NCBI RefSeq assembly: GCF_009734185.1
Contig: NZ_CP046393.1
Coordinates: forward strand, 1 to 64,000
DNA: 64,000 nt
Source of the DNA: Commensalibacter melissae
Lineage (GTDB): Bacteria; Pseudomonadota; Alphaproteobacteria; Acetobacterales; Acetobacteraceae
Direction of reading: 5' to 3'
The notes under the pieces are model-generated. The model saw nothing but the letters and a program-made list of their open reading frames with translations, was not told the origin of the DNA and searched no databases. Positions within the stretch are counted from its first letter, which is position 1. Each line of letters begins with the position of its first letter. A program made the translations under genes and the position numbers. Shown here piece after piece: positions 17,795 through 26,024 of this stretch.

Positions 17795-20700
17795 ATGACC
17801 TCGGCATTACAGAGTTTACTGGAACAATTCCGTCATGCAACGCAAACGGAACGGGATAAGGGAACCAGTTTTGAAAACCTGATGATCAAGTATTTCAAAA
17901 CTGAACCGGCTTATAAAAATAAATACAAGGATATTTTACCCTATTCTGACTGGGTGTCCTGTTATGGAAAGATCCTGAACATCACGGATAAAAAGGACAC
18001 GGGTATTGATTTGGTCGGGGTCACTTTGAATAATGAACTTCATGCCTTTCAATGCAAAAACTATGATCCGGACAGGACAATCAGCAAAAATGACATAGAC
18101 AGCTTCTTTACCGCTTCGGGCAAGAAATATTTTACCTATCGCTATATCATATCCACGACTGACAAATGGACAGAAAATGCCGAAAATGCCCTGGAAAACC
18201 AGAATCCCCCGGTCAGCAAGATCGATCTGCATCACTTGGAACAGAGTGTTATTGACTGGTCAAAATACTTGCATGAAGAAAAACCGGTTTTAAAACCCAA
18301 GAAAAAGCTGCTTGATCATCAGGCGTCCGCCCTGGAAGCCGTGCAACACGGCCTGAAAACCGCGGATCGCGGCAAACTGATCATGGCATGTGGTACAGGA
18401 AAAACATTTACCTCGCTAAAAATTGCCGAAACCATGGCGGGTAAGGGGAAAACCGTATTATTTCTGGTTCCAAGCCTTTCCCTGCTCAGTCAGAGCCTTA
18501 CAGAATGGACGCAAGAGAGTGCCATTGAAATAAACAGTTTCGCGGTATGTTCAGACAGTGATGTAGGCAAGAAACATGCCAGGGAGGATGACCGTGTCAT
18601 TGCGGGAATCAGTGATTTGCAATATCCGGCAACAACCCATGCCGAAAGTTTGAAAAAAGCGTTTCACGTGGCCCTTGATAATAATCCCGAAGCCATGACG
18701 GTCATTTTTTCAACCTATCATTCCATCGAGGTTCTTAACCAGGCGCAACAGGATGAAAACGCCATTCCGGCATTCGATCTGGTCATCTGTGATGAAGCGC
18801 ACCGTACGACGGGTGCAACCTATGAGGGGGATGATGAATCCGCATTTGTCAGAATTCATGACAATGAATATATTCTTGGAAAAAAACGTTTATACATGAC
18901 CGCAACCCCCCGGATTTATGCCGAAGCCAGCAAGAAAAAGGCCAGGGATGAATCTATTGTCGTCTATTCAATGGATGATCCGGCTATCTATGGTGAGGAT
19001 TTATATGTCATCACATTTTCCCAGGCCGTATCACGAAACTTGCTGGTTGATTACAAAGTCATCGTTCTGGCCGTGGAGGAAAGCCACATCAACAGACGCC
19101 TGCAAGAATTGCTGAAGGATCAGGATAATGCATTGAAGGTTGATGATGCGGCAAAAATCGTTGGTTGCTGGAAAGCCCTGTCTAAACAGGGGCTGTATGA
19201 AAATCCCGATAATTCGGCGGATCCCATGCAACGCGCCGTTGCCTTTTGCCAGGTCATTGAGGCAACCTATAAAGGCAGGACACACAAAGTCAGTTCCAAA
19301 CTAATCGCCGAGATGTTTGGCAAGGTTGTTGAACAATATCAACATCACGAAACCGAAGAACGTTCAAAAGAAAATCTTGACGCACTTCCGGACAGGGCCT
19401 TGAGCATGACTTGCGAGGCAGAACATATTGATGGAGGAATGAACGCGGGGGAAAAGGAAACGAAACTGGAATGGCTGAAATCCGAAATACCAGAAAATAC
19501 CTGTCGCATACTGTCAAATGTCCGGTGCCTGTCCGAAGGGGTAGATGTTCCGGCACTGGATGCCGTTCTTTTCCTGACAGCCCGTTCATCCCAGGTGGAC
19601 GTGGTTCAATCCGTTGGCCGGGTTATGCGCAAGGCACCCGGAAAAAAGTTGGGATATGTCATATTGCCCATTGTCATACCGGCAGGCATTGAGCCTGAAA
19701 AGGCACTGGATGACAATCAGACCTATCGTGTTGTATGGCAGGTTCTAAATGCCCTCCGTTCCCATGATGACCGTTTTGACGCAACCATCAACAAGCTGGA
19801 ATTCAATGGAAAGGCCCCCTCAAGAATAGAGGTGATCGCTGTTGCCGACAAGATCGGCCCCAAAAGACAAAAGCAAACCAGATCTCAGGAATTAGTGGCA
19901 AGGGCGAGGAAAAGCCATATTATTGGCCAGGCTTCCCCACCCTCATCGAACCGGCAGGGAGACCTGGTATTCGAGGTTGGAGAAATTGAACGGGCCCTCT
20001 ATGCCAAAATCGTTAAAAAATGTGGAAACCGGCATCACTGGGAGGACTGGGCAAATGATGTCGCCAAAATTGCCCAAACCCATATCGATCGCATCCAGCA
20101 CATTCTGGACAACCCGAAAAATCATCAGGCCATTCATCTTTTCAACGAATTTGCCAAAGAGTTGCGGAATGATATCAACCAAAATCTCGATGATCATGAA
20201 ATCATTGAAATGCTGGCCCAGCATATGGTTACAAAACCTGTATTTGACGCCCTGTTCGGACATTACCGGTTTACCGAGCACAATCCCATCTCAAAGGGAA
20301 TGCAGAAAATCCTTGAACAGCTGGACAGGGAAAAACTGGACAAGGAACGTGCAACCCTGCAGTCCTTTTACGAATCCGTAAAAATGCGTGCCACGGGCAT
20401 TGACAGCGTACAGGGCAGACAGCGCATCATCATCGAGCTATATGACAAATTCTTTCGCAATGCCTTTCCACGCATGACCGAAAGGTTGGGAATTGTCTAC
20501 ACACCGGTTGAGGTGGTGGATTTCATCATCCACAGCATCGAGCATGTCCTGAAAACCGAATTTGGCAGCAGTCTCGCCGAACCCAATGTCCATATTCTTG
20601 ACCCATTCACAGGTACCGGAACCTTCATCACAAGGATGCTGCAAAGCGGCATTATCACAAAGGACAAACTACCCCACAAATATAAACGTGAAATCCATGC

Positions 20701-22771
20701 CAATGAGATTGTCCTGCTGGCCTATTATATCGCCACGATCAATATTGAATCAACCTATCACAGTATAATGACGCAACAAAACGATGCTGGCAAAACAGAA
20801 AAGAAAGAAGGGGAATATACATCCTTTGCCGGAATCTGTCTGACCGACACGTTCGAAATGGCGAAAGGCAGGCAAAAGGATATCGGAAAGGATATCCTGC
20901 TAAGGGAAAACAATGAACGGGTTTCCCGTCAGCAGGCCCTTGACATTCAAGTTATCATGAGCAATCCGCCCTATTCCGCGGGGCAGGAATCCGCCAATGA
21001 CAATAATGCCAATCTTTCCTATCCAGACCTGGATGAAAGAATTCGTGAAACCTATGCCAAATATTCAACGGCAACCAATAAAAACGCGTTGTATGACAGT
21101 TACATAAGGGCCATCCGCTGGGCATCGGATCGAATCAGGGAATGCGGTGTTCTCGGTTTTGTCAGCAATGCCAGCTTTATCGACAGCAACACTTGTGATG
21201 GCTTGAGAAAATGTCTGGCTGAAGAATTCACCAGCCTTTATATTTTTCATTTACGCGGTAATGCAAGAACTTCCGGAGAGCAAAGACGTAAAGAAAAAGA
21301 TAATATATTTAATATAGGAAGTCGTGCCCCCATTGCCATTTCAATTCTGGTTAAAAACCCCAATCAAAACCAGAGGGGACAAATATATTTTCACGATATT
21401 GGCGATTACCTCATCCGTCAGCAAAAACTGGAAACAATACGGAAATTCGGCAATATCGATGGAATCACCCGACACAACGGCTGGATCAATATTGTTCCTG
21501 ACCGGTTCAATGACTGGATCAATCAGCGCGATCCAGATTTCAATGCCTATATTCCCATGGGTGATAAAAAGGATAGGCAAACAATAAGCATTTTTGAAAA
21601 TTATTCTAACGGTATCAAAACAAATAGAGATGCCTGGGTTTATAATGCCTCATCCAAAAAATTGATTGCCAATATCCAAAAATCCATTCAGTTCTACAAT
21701 GGCGAGGTTGATCGCTATCTTGCCCAACCCCAATCCACCAAAATTATAAAGGCTGAAGATTTCGTCATTTTTGATTCAACCAGGTTTTCATGGGATTTTG
21801 CCAATAAACAAGATTTAACTAAAGGAAAAAAATATCAGTTTGATTCTTCCTCCCTATATAAATCCCTATATCGTCCCTTCACGAAATCTTACTTGTATTT
21901 TAACAAAGATTTAAATAATCGACGTTATCAAATGCCACAGATTTTTCCAACTGCACAGACTGATAATCAAATATTATGTTTATCTGTAACTGGAACAAAA
22001 AAATTTAGTATTTTAATTTGTAATTTAGTTCCAGATTTACATTTAATTGGCGATGCACAATGTTTTCCCCTATATCTCTATGACATTTCTCCCCGTGAAA
22101 ATGATTTGTTGGAAAAGGAAACACCCAAAAGACGGGACGCCATCTCCAATGATGCCCTAAAACATTTTCAGGCCGCCTATCCCGATCAGGCCATCACCAG
22201 GGAGGATATTTTCTATTACATTTACGGCCTGCTTCACAGTGAAGATTACCGCAGCCGTTATGAGGACAATCTGACCAAGGATCTTCCCCGTATTCCCCGT
22301 GTCAAGTCGTTTGATGATTTTACCGCCTTCACACAGGCGGGACGCATGCTTGCCGACCTGCACCTGAATTATGAAACTGTTGACTGTTACACCGGGGTTG
22401 AAATTGATGGGTTAACCCTTACCCCATCAGGAATTGTCGGGGGGAAAGACCATGAATTTCACGTTACCAAAATGAGGTTTCCCCAAAGGAATCAGAAAAC
22501 GGAAGTCATTTACAATGACTGTTTCACCATCAGAAACATACCTGAGGAGGCCTATGACTATATCGTAAATGGAAAATCGGCCCTGGAATGGGTTATGGAA
22601 CGCCAATCCGTTACAACAGACAAAAAAACAGGCATTACCAATGATGCCAACGACTGGGCCATTGAAACCATGCATGATCCAAAATATCCGCTTGAACTAT
22701 TTCTTCGTGTCATAACTGTCAGTCTGGCAACAAGTAAAATTGTCAATGCCTTGCCTAAACTGAAACTGTAA
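17795..22771 (+). CDS. Type ISP restriction-modification enzyme (nuclease-helicase-methyltransferase single chain)
   Basis: A 1658-residue single polypeptide combining all restriction-modification functions. It starts with an Mrr-like nuclease (Asp72 in TGIDLVGV, Gln86-Cys-Lys88 in FQCKNY). An SF2 translocase follows: GTGKT 200-204, DEAH 333-336 and SVGRVMRKAPGKK. Next comes an N6-adenine methyltransferase with DPFTGTGTF (936-944) and NPPY (1057-1060). A target-recognition C-terminal part follows. This order and size match LlaGI/LlaBIII-type enzymes, which cut after translocation and methylate one strand. Most of the gene is about 45-50% GC, but the target-recognition part is far more AT-rich. 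A solitary gene with no separate specificity or helper gene nearby. Start codon ATG lacks a strong ribosome site. Confidence 0.92.
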   Translation: MTSALQSLLEQFRHATQTERDKGTSFENLMIKYFKTEPAYKNKYKDILPYSDWVSCYGKILNITDKKDTGIDLVGVTLNNELHAFQCKNYDPDRTISKNDIDSFFTASGKKYFTYRYIISTTDKWTENAENALENQNPPVSKIDLHHLEQSVIDWSKYLHEEKPVLKPKKKLLDHQASALEAVQHGLKTADRGKLIMACGTGKTFTSLKIAETMAGKGKTVLFLVPSLSLLSQSLTEWTQESAIEINSFAVCSDSDVGKKHAREDDRVIAGISDLQYPATTHAESLKKAFHVALDNNPEAMTVIFSTYHSIEVLNQAQQDENAIPAFDLVICDEAHRTTGATYEGDDESAFVRIHDNEYILGKKRLYMTATPRIYAEASKKKARDESIVVYSMDDPAIYGEDLYVITFSQAVSRNLLVDYKVIVLAVEESHINRRLQELLKDQDNALKVDDAAKIVGCWKALSKQGLYENPDNSADPMQRAVAFCQVIEATYKGRTHKVSSKLIAEMFGKVVEQYQHHETEERSKENLDALPDRALSMTCEAEHIDGGMNAGEKETKLEWLKSEIPENTCRILSNVRCLSEGVDVPALDAVLFLTARSSQVDVVQSVGRVMRKAPGKKLGYVILPIVIPAGIEPEKALDDNQTYRVVWQVLNALRSHDDRFDATINKLEFNGKAPSRIEVIAVADKIGPKRQKQTRSQELVARARKSHIIGQASPPSSNRQGDLVFEVGEIERALYAKIVKKCGNRHHWEDWANDVAKIAQTHIDRIQHILDNPKNHQAIHLFNEFAKELRNDINQNLDDHEIIEMLAQHMVTKPVFDALFGHYRFTEHNPISKGMQKILEQLDREKLDKERATLQSFYESVKMRATGIDSVQGRQRIIIELYDKFFRNAFPRMTERLGIVYTPVEVVDFIIHSIEHVLKTEFGSSLAEPNVHILDPFTGTGTFITRMLQSGIITKDKLPHKYKREIHANEIVLLAYYIATINIESTYHSIMTQQNDAGKTEKKEGEYTSFAGICLTDTFEMAKGRQKDIGKDILLRENNERVSRQQALDIQVIMSNPPYSAGQESANDNNANLSYPDLDERIRETYAKYSTATNKNALYDSYIRAIRWASDRIRECGVLGFVSNASFIDSNTCDGLRKCLAEEFTSLYIFHLRGNARTSGEQRRKEKDNIFNIGSRAPIAISILVKNPNQNQRGQIYFHDIGDYLIRQQKLETIRKFGNIDGITRHNGWINIVPDRFNDWINQRDPDFNAYIPMGDKKDRQTISIFENYSNGIKTNRDAWVYNASSKKLIANIQKSIQFYNGEVDRYLAQPQSTKIIKAEDFVIFDSTRFSWDFANKQDLTKGKKYQFDSSSLYKSLYRPFTKSYLYFNKDLNNRRYQMPQIFPTAQTDNQILCLSVTGTKKFSILICNLVPDLHLIGDAQCFPLYLYDISPRENDLLEKETPKRRDAISNDALKHFQAAYPDQAITREDIFYYIYGLLHSEDYRSRYEDNLTKDLPRIPRVKSFDDFTAFTQAGRMLADLHLNYETVDCYTGVEIDGLTLTPSGIVGGKDHEFHVTKMRFPQRNQKTEVIYNDCFTIRNIPEEAYDYIVNGKSALEWVMERQSVTTDKKTGITNDANDWAIETMHDPKYPLELFLRVITVSLATSKIVNALPKLKL

Positions 22772-23300: not shown

Positions 23301-23741
23301 TTATTCAGGTTTGGTCGCAAAAGCGATCGCAAAACGGTTCCAGGCATTGATAACATTAATGGTAACCGTCAACTCGACAATTTCCTGATCATCAAAATGT
23401 TTTCTGACCTGACTGTAAATTTCATCAGGGGCATGTTTTTCCGATACAAGCGTCAGTGTTTCCGTCCATAATAAGGCTGCCTGTTCCCGTTCATTGAAAT
23501 AGGATGTCTCCCGCCAGGCACTGAGGGTCAAGATCCGTTTCAAATCCTCGCCTGCAGCCAGGGCATCCCTGGTATGCATATCAATGCAGAAAGCGCAGCC
23601 ATTAATCTGGGAAGCCCTTATCTTTACCAATTCCCTCAATGAAACGGGAAGGATTGACTTTTTTGAAGCCTCTTCCAAATTCCACATGGCCTTCATCATT
23701 TCAGGAGCGGCCTTAAAATAATTCAGTCGTTTTTCTACCAT
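23301..23741 (-). CDS. AhpD-like carboxymuconolactone decarboxylase-family protein
   Basis: A 146-residue all-helical protein with the AhpD-type redox motif INGCAFCIDMHTRDA, that is Cys-x-x-Cys followed by His, preceded by a conserved Glu in LRELVKIRASQ. Such proteins are thiol-dependent peroxidase partners, though many have no assigned role. A start at 23741 is preceded by AAAGGGAA, a good ribosome site. It is divergent from hemE across the putative origin region. Confidence 0.88.
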   Translation of the reverse strand: MVEKRLNYFKAAPEMMKAMWNLEEASKKSILPVSLRELVKIRASQINGCAFCIDMHTRDALAAGEDLKRILTLSAWRETSYFNEREQAALLWTETLTLVSEKHAPDEIYSQVRKHFDDQEIVELTVTINVINAWNRFAIAFATKPE

Positions 23742-24210
23742 CTCAAATTCCCTTTCTAAAATAAATTTTGGTTTCCCATAATAAAGAATATCTATTATAA
23801 GATGTATTTACAATGAATTTTATTTTCGGTTTTTCCAAATCGATTCCGACAATTTTTCATCTGATTTTATGATTGGGGTACAATGAGGTACATGGGGATT
23901 AAATTTCAAGAAAAATAGTCAGGTACTGAGTACCGGGGATTGTACCCTTTTTTTATTTTTCAGTGAGTTGTACACAGGTTTGGTTTAACAATATCTGGAT
24001 AACCTAAATTTATTGAATGAATTCAACCTGTTAAAATCTGTACACTCTGTTGGAAAAATGGGGTACATTTTTTAAATAACGGGTACCACAGTACTAACAG
24101 GATTTATAAACAAACATCAAAAAATTTAAATTTTCTTTTTATTTTAAAGGACATGAAAAAGAAAAAAAAATTTGATACTGTTTTATCAAGACGAATAAGA
24201 AAGAATATGA
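23742..24210. other. Gene-free hemE upstream region, candidate replication origin
   Basis: 469 bp with no convincing ORF. It contains ten GTAC tetranucleotides between 23878 and 24094, several as GGGTACA or its complement. It also has TCTGGATAA at 23994-24002, one mismatch from the DnaA box TGTGGATAA, and TTGTACACA at 23968-23976. AT-rich tracts border both ends. In Caulobacter and Rickettsia the chromosomal origin lies directly upstream of hemE, as here. Origin function is an inference; the region must also contain the hemE and ahpD-like promoters. Confidence 0.45.
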
Positions 24211-25275
24211 ATGTTAAAATCTGAAAAAAAATTGATGAAAGTTCTGAAAGGGGAAAAAATATGGCCACCCCCTTTATGGATGATGCGACAGGCAGGAAGA
24301 TTTTTACCTGAATTTCGAAAATTAAGGGAACAGGCTGATTTTCTTACACGTTGTCTGACACCTGATCTTGCCGCTGAAATAACATTGCAACCCATAAGAC
24401 GTTTTGCTTTTGACACCGCCATCCTTTTTTCAGATATTTTAATCCTGCCATGGGCGATGGGACAAAAATTACAGTTTGTTGAAGGAAAAGGCCCCATTTT
24501 ACACCCTATTCATTCGGAGGAGGATCTGAAAAAACTCCATCCGAAACAGATTGATGAAAAAATTGAACCGGTCCTGATCACCCTGCAAAATCTTAATAAA
24601 TTGCTTAATAATGGTGAATCGATTGGAAAAGCCTCACCTGGATCGGTAACCCTGATGGGATTTACAGGATCGCCTTTTACAGTTGCCTGCTACATGGTTG
24701 AAGGTAAATCCTCGAAAGATTTTTCAACTGTGTTTAAAATGATTTATCAAAATCCTGACTTGTTTGATAAGATCATTGATCTTCTTGCAGAAACAACAGC
24801 AACCTATCTTTGTCATCAAGTAAGGGCCGGTGCCGAAGCCATTATGCTTTTTGACAGTTGGGCGGGTCTGCTCCCTTCAACCCTGTTTCAGCGTTATGTC
24901 ATTGATCCCACCCGACAAATCATTGACAGAATCAGACAGGTCTATCCTCTGGTCCCGATTATCGGTTTCCCGAGGTTGGCCGGGACACAACTGCTAACCT
25001 ATATTGAACGGACAGGTTTAAATACGGTTGGAGTGGATCAATATAACGATATATCCTTCTTAAACCGTCAGGTATCCCCCACAGTTGGATTTCAGGGTAA
25101 TCTTGATCCCTTGTGTCTGTTATATGGCGGGAACATGCTTCAGAAGGAAATTCATCGCTTATGTCATGAATTGAAAAACAGGCCGCATATTTTTAATCTA
25201 GGTCATGGAATATTACCTGCAACCCCTATTGAACATGTCGAAGAATTGGTTAACACTGTACATAATTTAAAATAA
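24211..25275 (+). CDS. hemE: Uroporphyrinogen decarboxylase
   Basis: Decarboxylates uroporphyrinogen III to coproporphyrinogen III in haem synthesis. The 354-residue protein has the family start PPLWMMRQAGRFLPEFR and FSDILILPWAMG. It also has FTGSPFTVACYMVEG, FDSWAGLLP and the late NLGHGILPATPIEHVE. An upstream overlapping ATG at 24205 runs into a stop after five codons, so 24211 is the start. It heads a plus-strand group with a HAD phosphatase and hemJ, leading away from the candidate origin. Confidence 0.96.
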   Translation: MLKSEKKLMKVLKGEKIWPPPLWMMRQAGRFLPEFRKLREQADFLTRCLTPDLAAEITLQPIRRFAFDTAILFSDILILPWAMGQKLQFVEGKGPILHPIHSEEDLKKLHPKQIDEKIEPVLITLQNLNKLLNNGESIGKASPGSVTLMGFTGSPFTVACYMVEGKSSKDFSTVFKMIYQNPDLFDKIIDLLAETTATYLCHQVRAGAEAIMLFDSWAGLLPSTLFQRYVIDPTRQIIDRIRQVYPLVPIIGFPRLAGTQLLTYIERTGLNTVGVDQYNDISFLNRQVSPTVGFQGNLDPLCLLYGGNMLQKEIHRLCHELKNRPHIFNLGHGILPATPIEHVEELVNTVHNLK

Positions 25276-25289
25276 TTGGGAGATTGGGA

Positions 25290-26024
25290 ATGGACGATAG
25301 AATAAAACAGGTCATTCAACAGGCACCGCAGGCTGTTCATACTAATGGATCTTTAAAACTGGTTATTTTTGATTGCGATGGTGTTCTGGTTGAAAGTGAG
25401 CATATTGTGGCAGAAATTATGGGAAAAGAAGCTCGTCAATATGGATGGAACATAACCGATAAACAGGCCCGTGAAGAATTTACCGGAGTGCAAATGGTGG
25501 ATATCGGAAAAAAGATAGCCAAGCATGCAAAAAGGAATTTACCGGATAACTGGGCTGAGGAAGCACATAAAAAGGTTGTCGAGGGCATGTTCGGCAATGT
25601 GGAAAAAATTCCTGGCGTTGAATCAATTCTGCAAACCCTACATGATTTGAAAATACCTTATCGTGTCGGTTCGAATTCCTCACAGGAGGAAATGAAAACA
25701 AAATTTGAGAAAACCGGATTGATGAAGTGGTTTCCCAAGGATCGTATTCATTCTGCTTATGAGGTTAGAAATTCAAAGCCTTTTCCTGACCTTTATTTGT
25801 ATGCTGCTGAAGAAGAGGGGGTTAACCCTGATGAATGTCTGGTTATCGAGGATTCTGATACAGGTTTAAAAGCTGCCTATGATGCGGGGATGGCCTGTAT
25901 GTTATTGAGGGATTTAAATAAAGCAGCACCAAATTATAAAGGGGTCATCCGTGTTGATTCTCTTCAGAAAGCTATCGATATCATAAAGGAAATTGTTCAA
26001 TCTCAGCATAACAGGGAACATTAG
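25290..26024 (+). CDS. HAD-superfamily phosphatase
   Basis: A 244-residue haloacid dehalogenase-type hydrolase. Motif I is IFDCDGVLVESE with nucleophile Asp28 and acid Asp30. Motif II is VGSNSSQEE, the Lys of motif III is in NSKPFPDLYL, and motif IV is VIEDSDTGLKAA. It resembles phosphoglycolate/beta-phosphoglucomutase-like members, but the substrate cannot be told. The ATG at 25290 with upstream GGGAG is preferred to the TTG at 25284. Lies 14 bp after hemE and 2 bp before hemJ. Confidence 0.88.
   Translation: MDDRIKQVIQQAPQAVHTNGSLKLVIFDCDGVLVESEHIVAEIMGKEARQYGWNITDKQAREEFTGVQMVDIGKKIAKHAKRNLPDNWAEEAHKKVVEGMFGNVEKIPGVESILQTLHDLKIPYRVGSNSSQEEMKTKFEKTGLMKWFPKDRIHSAYEVRNSKPFPDLYLYAAEEEGVNPDECLVIEDSDTGLKAAYDAGMACMLLRDLNKAAPNYKGVIRVDSLQKAIDIIKEIVQSQHNREH

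Follow-up and report, generated by a model that had tools for sequence, protein, structure and literature searches.

A conserved GTAC array at a predicted hemE-linked replication origin of Commensalibacter melissae and its co-occurrence with an orphan methyltransferase gene in the Acetobacteraceae

The chromosomal origin of Escherichia coli, oriC, holds 11 GATC sites. SeqA acts on such sites in their hemimethylated state, according to the available part of the source (PMC6471742). The hemE origins of Caulobacter (Cori) and Rickettsia are AT-rich gaps of 383–620 bp, as given in table rows of Ioannidis 2007 (PMC1914354). In Archaea, persistent orphan methyltransferases of the groups HG10 and HG18 have been assigned to GTAC, and the available text of that paper describes the archaeal orphan GTAC enzymes as being of the N4-cytosine type (PMC10609329).

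The locus analysed here, an intergenic gap on the chromosome of the bee-gut bacterium Commensalibacter melissae, resembles the origins of Caulobacter and Rickettsia, judged by those table rows, in lying beside hemE and in being an AT-rich gap of similar size. It differs from them in having no CtrA sites, no exact IHF site and ten GTAC sites, in carrying an AhpD-like ORF in the place of COG1806, and in that dnaA is located near the terminus. With E. coli oriC and its Dam/SeqA system it shares a dense cluster of a palindromic tetramer next to DnaA-type boxes, as well as a genomic orphan methyltransferase. However, the tetramer is GTAC and not GATC, the enzyme belongs to PF01555 and is not Dam, and methylation of GTAC is here putative. 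HG10 and HG18 are precedents for persistent orphan methyltransferases assigned to GTAC, but they are archaeal and are described in the available part of the paper with no link to an origin (PMC10609329).

The chromosome is a single contig of 1,960,656 bp, and the window, i.e. the whole stretch of DNA analysed (64,000 nucleotides), represents its bases 1–64 kb. The gap of 469 bp (23,742–24,210, 72% AT) had been noted in a preliminary description as a gene-free stretch beside hemE, which is borne out by the ORF list and by the TIGR01464 match of hemE. It is flanked on one side by hemE itself (uroporphyrinogen decarboxylase, 24,211–25,275, plus strand, 375 bits) and on the other by the AhpD-like ORF (23,301–23,741, minus strand, TIGR00778), both of them transcribed away from the predicted origin. 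The nearest HemE in a named record, that of C. melissae AMU001, is 99% identical. An 82% AT stretch (24,104–24,210, plus strand) between the conserved element described below and hemE is a candidate unwinding region, and GC-rich relatives have an AT- or T-rich patch at the matching position. An Rfam search of the whole window at gathering thresholds returned two tRNAs and nothing else, and a plasmid search using hemE DNA gave no match.

The preliminary description had proposed a scan for DnaA, CtrA and IHF motifs. The near-DnaA box TCTGGATAA that it reported at 23,994–24,002 is present (minus strand, reading TTATCCAGA), and its GGATA core is at least 90% conserved across 32 aligned sequences. 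Canonical DnaA boxes are few in the gap: there is one TTATCCACA at ≤1 mismatch, a count within chance (63/300 shuffles reach as many), along with three TTATNCACA sites at one mismatch (reached by 14/300 shuffles). No CtrA site (TTAA-N7-TTAA) occurs in the gap at ≤1 mismatch (shuffle mean 4.67), and the IHF site is found there zero times exactly and three times at one mismatch (shuffle mean 2.12). The single GANTC is at chance level, with 1429/2000 shuffles reaching it. The suggested likeness to Caulobacter and Rickettsia is thus one of position, next to hemE, and does not extend to the CtrA sites, and control of the gap through CtrA and GANTC was rejected as a candidate. Granulibacter is a member of the same family (Acetobacteraceae). 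It has no ctrA ortholog, and the CtrA phosphorelay is reported to be partly missing in cluster D of the Rhodospirillales, according to the available part of the source (PMC2877005). As a separate observation, the stretch upstream of hemE in one family genome (G059, locus L257) carries a dense run of TTATCCACA-type boxes instead of GTAC, and the methyltransferase discussed below was not found in that genome.

The preliminary description had also quoted nine hand counts of single 60-base lines in suggesting a skew switch, two of them as exceptions. Eight are exact and one is slightly off (line 35701 holds C13/G7, not C12/G7), and although the quoted lines were selected ones, the trend of C exceeding G on the left and G exceeding C on the right is real: C>G in 217/396 and G>C in 156/396 lines left of the gap, versus 174/664 and 452/664, respectively, to its right. 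Over 104 kb (the window plus 20 kb on each side, with the contig handled as a circle), cumulative GC skew reaches its minimum within the gap, at 23,861, and a step function fits best at 23,863; in a 500-bp block bootstrap the central 95% of minima lay from −2.5 to +0.5 kb of this point. In the same 104 kb, T–A skew turns at 25,718 and keto-amino skew at 24,600, while purine skew shows no turn at the gap (minimum at −26).

Sampling was extended to 542,771 of the 1,960,656 bases of the chromosome (27.7%). All sampled 20-kb stretches between 20 and 973 kb have positive GC skew, and all those between 1.05 and 1.96 Mb have negative skew. The preliminary description had proposed a cumulative plot of the whole chromosome as a check, and had named a minimum elsewhere, for example near dnaA or parAB, as a refutation; in the part sampled, the minimum is inside the gap. 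The opposite turn, a cumulative GC-skew maximum at 987,740 (contiguous stretch 953–1,072 kb), is adjoined by a dif-like 28-mer starting at 987,750, with 19/28 matches to E. coli dif and a palindromic core, which was picked post hoc from the eight best windows (19–20/28 matches) of a looser scan of the sampled 27.7%. A 23-base dif pattern allowing ≤3 mismatches had no match in the genome, and KOPS-like octamers were too few for use. An origin at parAB was rejected on the sampled skew: parB lies at 1,905 kb and perfect parS sites at 1,907,345 and 1,909,629, ~77 kb from the gap and its skew minimum. The layout is that of two balanced replichores; the gap holds the predicted origin, and dnaA is beside the terminus. 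We are highly confident in predicting that the gap is a hemE-type chromosomal origin, because of the skew, the conservation of the element within it, and the fact that in some relatives this element moves together with the skew minimum.

Ten GTAC sites are crowded into 217 bp of the gap (23,878–24,094), whereas dinucleotide shuffles average 0.77 and never exceed 4, so that 0/2000 reach ten; elsewhere in the 542,771 sampled bases there are never more than four GTAC per 250 bp. This cluster, far beyond chance, went unremarked in the preliminary description. It lies inside a conserved element of 234 bp (23,870–24,103, plus strand), which is the only match in the genome to a sequence model of the element, R1 (150.5 bits; the C. 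melissae sequence is itself among those from which the model was built). Conservation was assessed in an alignment (A3) anchored on TTGTACACA. Of an initial set of 36 loci upstream of hemE it comprises 32; the remaining four (L133, L134, L138, and L139) are the displaced cases discussed below. Six of the 36 loci are from genus members outside the draw of 120 family genomes (G001, G002, and G005–G008), and are included in the alignment but not in the methyltransferase count.

The left-hand sites are variably retained, with GTAC present at site 1 (23,878–23,881) in 9/32 aligned sequences, at site 2 (23,888–23,891) in 31/32, at site 3 (23,923–23,926) in 28/32, at site 4 (23,930–23,933) in 27/32, and at site 5 (23,942–23,945) in 12/32. 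Four right-hand sites are kept in 32/32 sequences, one of them being the alignment anchor: site 6 (23,970–23,973, within the TTGTACACA at 23,968–23,976), site 7 (24,040–24,043), site 8 (24,063–24,066), and site 9 (24,083–24,086). They are separated by 70 (71 in three loci), 23, and 20 bp in 32/36 loci. Among relatives outside the genus, many have a DnaA-type box such as TCATCCACA following site 9, a place taken in Commensalibacter by another GTAC (site 10, 24,091–24,094, 10/32).

In order to see how widely the element occurs, R1 was run against genomes of the class (n=385) and a draw of the family (n=120), under stricter filters at which some weak matches are lost. Six of the 385 class genomes gave a match. 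Four of these were strong, all in Acetobacteraceae, and two weak ones (E 0.002 and 0.007) were taken as chance; no strong match occurred in the non-family genomes among the 385 drawn, and the family genome G059, listed in this search, had no match at all. In the family draw, 50/120 genomes matched at E ≤0.01 and 36/120 at E ≤1.4e-29, with a single strong match each, to which G031 and G083 add a second, weak one. In 32/36 genomes the strong match is immediately upstream of hemE, as is the match in 13/14 of the weak genomes.

Two PF01555 methyltransferases are encoded in the genome of C. melissae. One of them matches the NCBIfam CcrM model at 611 bits, below the model cut-off of 830. The other, an orphan of 283 aa (1,269,719–1,270,564), reaches no NCBIfam cut-off. 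Here and in two relatives its gene has mltA and a cytochrome c peroxidase-like ORF as its two neighbours (names assigned by reading the ORFs), and no restriction gene was seen beside it in these three neighbourhoods. The gene is present in 59/120 family genomes, once in each, at 49–100% identity.

We defined an array as at least four GTAC in the 250 bp upstream of hemE, and counted co-occurrence in 119 genomes, G030 being dropped as it has no hemE match. Arrays were found in 35/59 genomes with the methyltransferase gene versus 0/60 without it, or 39/59 versus 0/60 if four displaced arrays are added, such that 39/39 array genomes carry the gene; counted by genus, the figures are 25/42 versus 0/34. 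The 30 hemE-upstream stretches known at the outset were all from gene-positive genomes, and the prediction that GTAC arrays occur only where the gene occurs was set before the 89 further stretches were obtained. Among these 89, arrays were present in 9/29 with the gene and 0/60 without it (p 1.6e-5), six of the nine being already strong R1 matches. When 16 palindromic tetramers were compared, GTAC was an outlier (p 1.6e-15), followed by ATAT (6e-3). These p-values ignore the relatedness of the genomes, and the co-occurrence of gene and array may stem from shared ancestry. The gene can occur without an array, as it does in 20/59 gene-positive genomes, but 20/20 of these keep one or more GTAC within 450 bp, versus 26/60 genomes lacking the gene. 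In five of the 59 genomes (G060, G114, G057, G089, and G014), all without a dense array, the methyltransferase gene is located ≤10 kb from hemE on the same contig, perhaps reflecting an old linkage to the origin.

The restriction endonuclease RsaI cuts GTAC. A cyanophage methyltransferase is 46% identical to the 283-aa enzyme, and its gene overlaps an ORF labelled R.RsaI endonuclease; this label is the annotator's, and searches of that ORF against Pfam, NCBIfam, and PDB gave nothing. Further phage relatives, about equally close, carry the label DNA adenine methylase, and no restriction gene is named with these matches; nor is one listed beside a relative on a Paracoccus plasmid (48% identity). 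From the one R.RsaI-labelled neighbour, the array, and the distribution above, GTAC is the putative target of the 283-aa enzyme. Its two best matches in PDB bear the label cytosine-N4 methyltransferase, and adenine enzymes rank lower; because of this, and because the archaeal orphan GTAC enzymes are of the N4-cytosine type, our weak guess for its product is N4-methylcytosine.

We propose that the gap would function as a single bidirectional chromosomal origin, where binding of DnaA to the DnaA-like boxes would unwind the 82% AT stretch beside hemE, with the forks then running to the terminus near 988 kb. The GTAC array, placed between and over the DnaA-like boxes, would be the regulatory part. 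The 283-aa orphan methyltransferase would methylate GTAC on both strands, so that origins would be hemimethylated just after copying, and a step sensitive to methylation, either DnaA binding or sequestration by a protein, could then block immediate re-firing, as Dam/SeqA do at E. coli oriC. That GTAC serves as a methylation site timing initiation is suggested by the array, the distribution of the gene, and the one phage neighbour, and we see the chances of it as about even. The whole statement, a hemE-type origin at which probably methylated GTAC replaces CtrA control, appears to us evenly balanced, reasoning as we do from genome sequences.

The main rival accepts the origin but sees in GTAC the core of a binding site for an origin-binding protein that has replaced CtrA, the methyltransferase being incidental. 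Several sites do have conserved flanks (TTGTACACA, GGGGTACA, and GGGTACC) and the spacing of the sites is nearly fixed, both of which are features of protein sites, and the 20 methyltransferase-positive genomes lacking an array also agree with it. Against it, the four letters GTAC are the only bases common to all ten sites, and an array was never seen without the methyltransferase gene in the 119 genomes. We consider this explanation possible but rather doubtful.

Acetic acid bacteria may have independently evolved a counterpart of Dam/SeqA, in which a GTAC array methylated by an orphan enzyme at a hemE-linked, CtrA-site-free origin would act as an epigenetic once-per-cycle licence, with dnaA often near the terminus and copied last; we put forward this analogy tentatively, at somewhat less than even likelihood. 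Among the relatives examined, the restriction of the array to genomes with the lone methyltransferase hints at an undescribed control of replication start. It suggests how a group with a CtrA phosphorelay reported, in the available part of the source, to be partly missing (PMC2877005) could time initiation, and it names a candidate gene. Among the matches listed in literature searches on acetic acid bacteria, oriC, hemE, RsaI, and GTAC methylation, with subscription journals mostly outside the scope, we found no description of the conserved hemE-side element with its GTAC array. An origin element with such clear limits would allow origins in acetic acid bacteria and related groups to be annotated correctly, growth to be estimated from peak-to-trough ratios, and minichromosome vectors to be built. 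Bee-gut metagenomes are reported to have raised coverage close to the origin (PMC6347622).

The origin has been placed elsewhere in two published Acetobacter genomes. The available parts of these sources describe the oriC of A. pasteurianus 386B as lying near dnaA and opposite dif (PMC3751514), and that of Acetobacter cerevisiae KSO5 as likewise lying near dnaA (PMC13209655). In C. melissae, dnaA (994,840–996,282) starts ~7.1 kb further along the chromosome than the dif-like site, close to the skew maximum and to the point opposite the predicted origin, and an origin at dnaA is contradicted in this genome by the skew. Distances were determined in 15 of 19 genomes, those in which both loci are on one chromosome-sized contig (four assemblies of 5–7 contigs were left out): dnaA is at 0.37–0.50 of the circumference from the element or hemE in 12/15, our own genome included, and at 0.18, 0.07, and 0.07 in the other three. 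No clear minus-to-plus skew switch was seen at dnaA in the five relatives sampled there, that of G108 being weak. Furthermore, the published oriC of KSO5 coincides with the skew maximum and is only 51 kb from the claimed dif, so far as the available text gives these positions (PMC13209655), which fits the terminus better. The oriC of 386B near dnaA with dif opposite, as reported in the part of the paper available (PMC3751514), does not fit a layout with dnaA near the terminus. We consider an origin at dnaA very unlikely in C. melissae. Since dnaA is near the terminus, origin finders keyed to dnaA can misplace the origin by about half a chromosome.

In four family genomes the element is displaced, namely in G031 and G095 (one genus) and in G083 and G125 (another), where it lies 20–26 kb from hemE and has 10–12 GTAC in each case. 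At first impression these arrays had been taken for losses of the element, an idea rejected when R1 located the elements elsewhere in the genome. In all four, the cumulative GC-skew minimum over 100 kb is 5–733 bp from the element and 20–27 kb from hemE; for keto-amino skew the distance between minimum and element is at most 4 kb. Since the skew minimum has shifted along with it, it is the element, not hemE, that accompanies the skew switch. The idea that the element serves hemE as a regulatory leader or promoter, and is near the skew minimum by chance, has in its favour the usual position directly upstream of hemE (32/36), but is extremely improbable and was rejected given these four genomes, in which the element is separate from hemE and takes the skew minimum along, and given that Rfam found just two tRNAs in the window. 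A weak remnant R1 match at hemE is seen among the displaced cases in G083 only (E 3.4e-4). Similar genes flank the displaced elements of G095 and G125, which may thus represent one rearrangement found in two genera.

A clear minus-to-plus skew switch at the element or hemE was observed in 9/15 genomes (G000, G031, G083, G095, G125, G015, G062, G082, and G028), including G028, which has no methyltransferase gene. The switch is weak in G059, and skew is nearly flat in G040 and G041. G108 shows positive skew on both sides over 20 kb, weakly so on the left, and for G117 the sampling covered a single side. Both flanks of the G025 element (1.874 Mb) have positive skew, and the switch in that genome occurs at ~1.808–1.850 Mb, about 24–66 kb away.

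Two further features of the C. melissae chromosome were seen in passing. A 42-bp stretch at 64,865–64,906 is 81% identical to an AT-rich portion of the gap, probably by chance. Within the window, an ORF of 1658 aa (17,795–22,771), ending ~1 kb left of the gap, resembles a helicase in one part and an Alw26-type methyltransferase in another (no NCBIfam match reaches its cut-off), has a GC content of up to 0.48 in 2-kb windows, and is probably an acquired restriction-modification enzyme.
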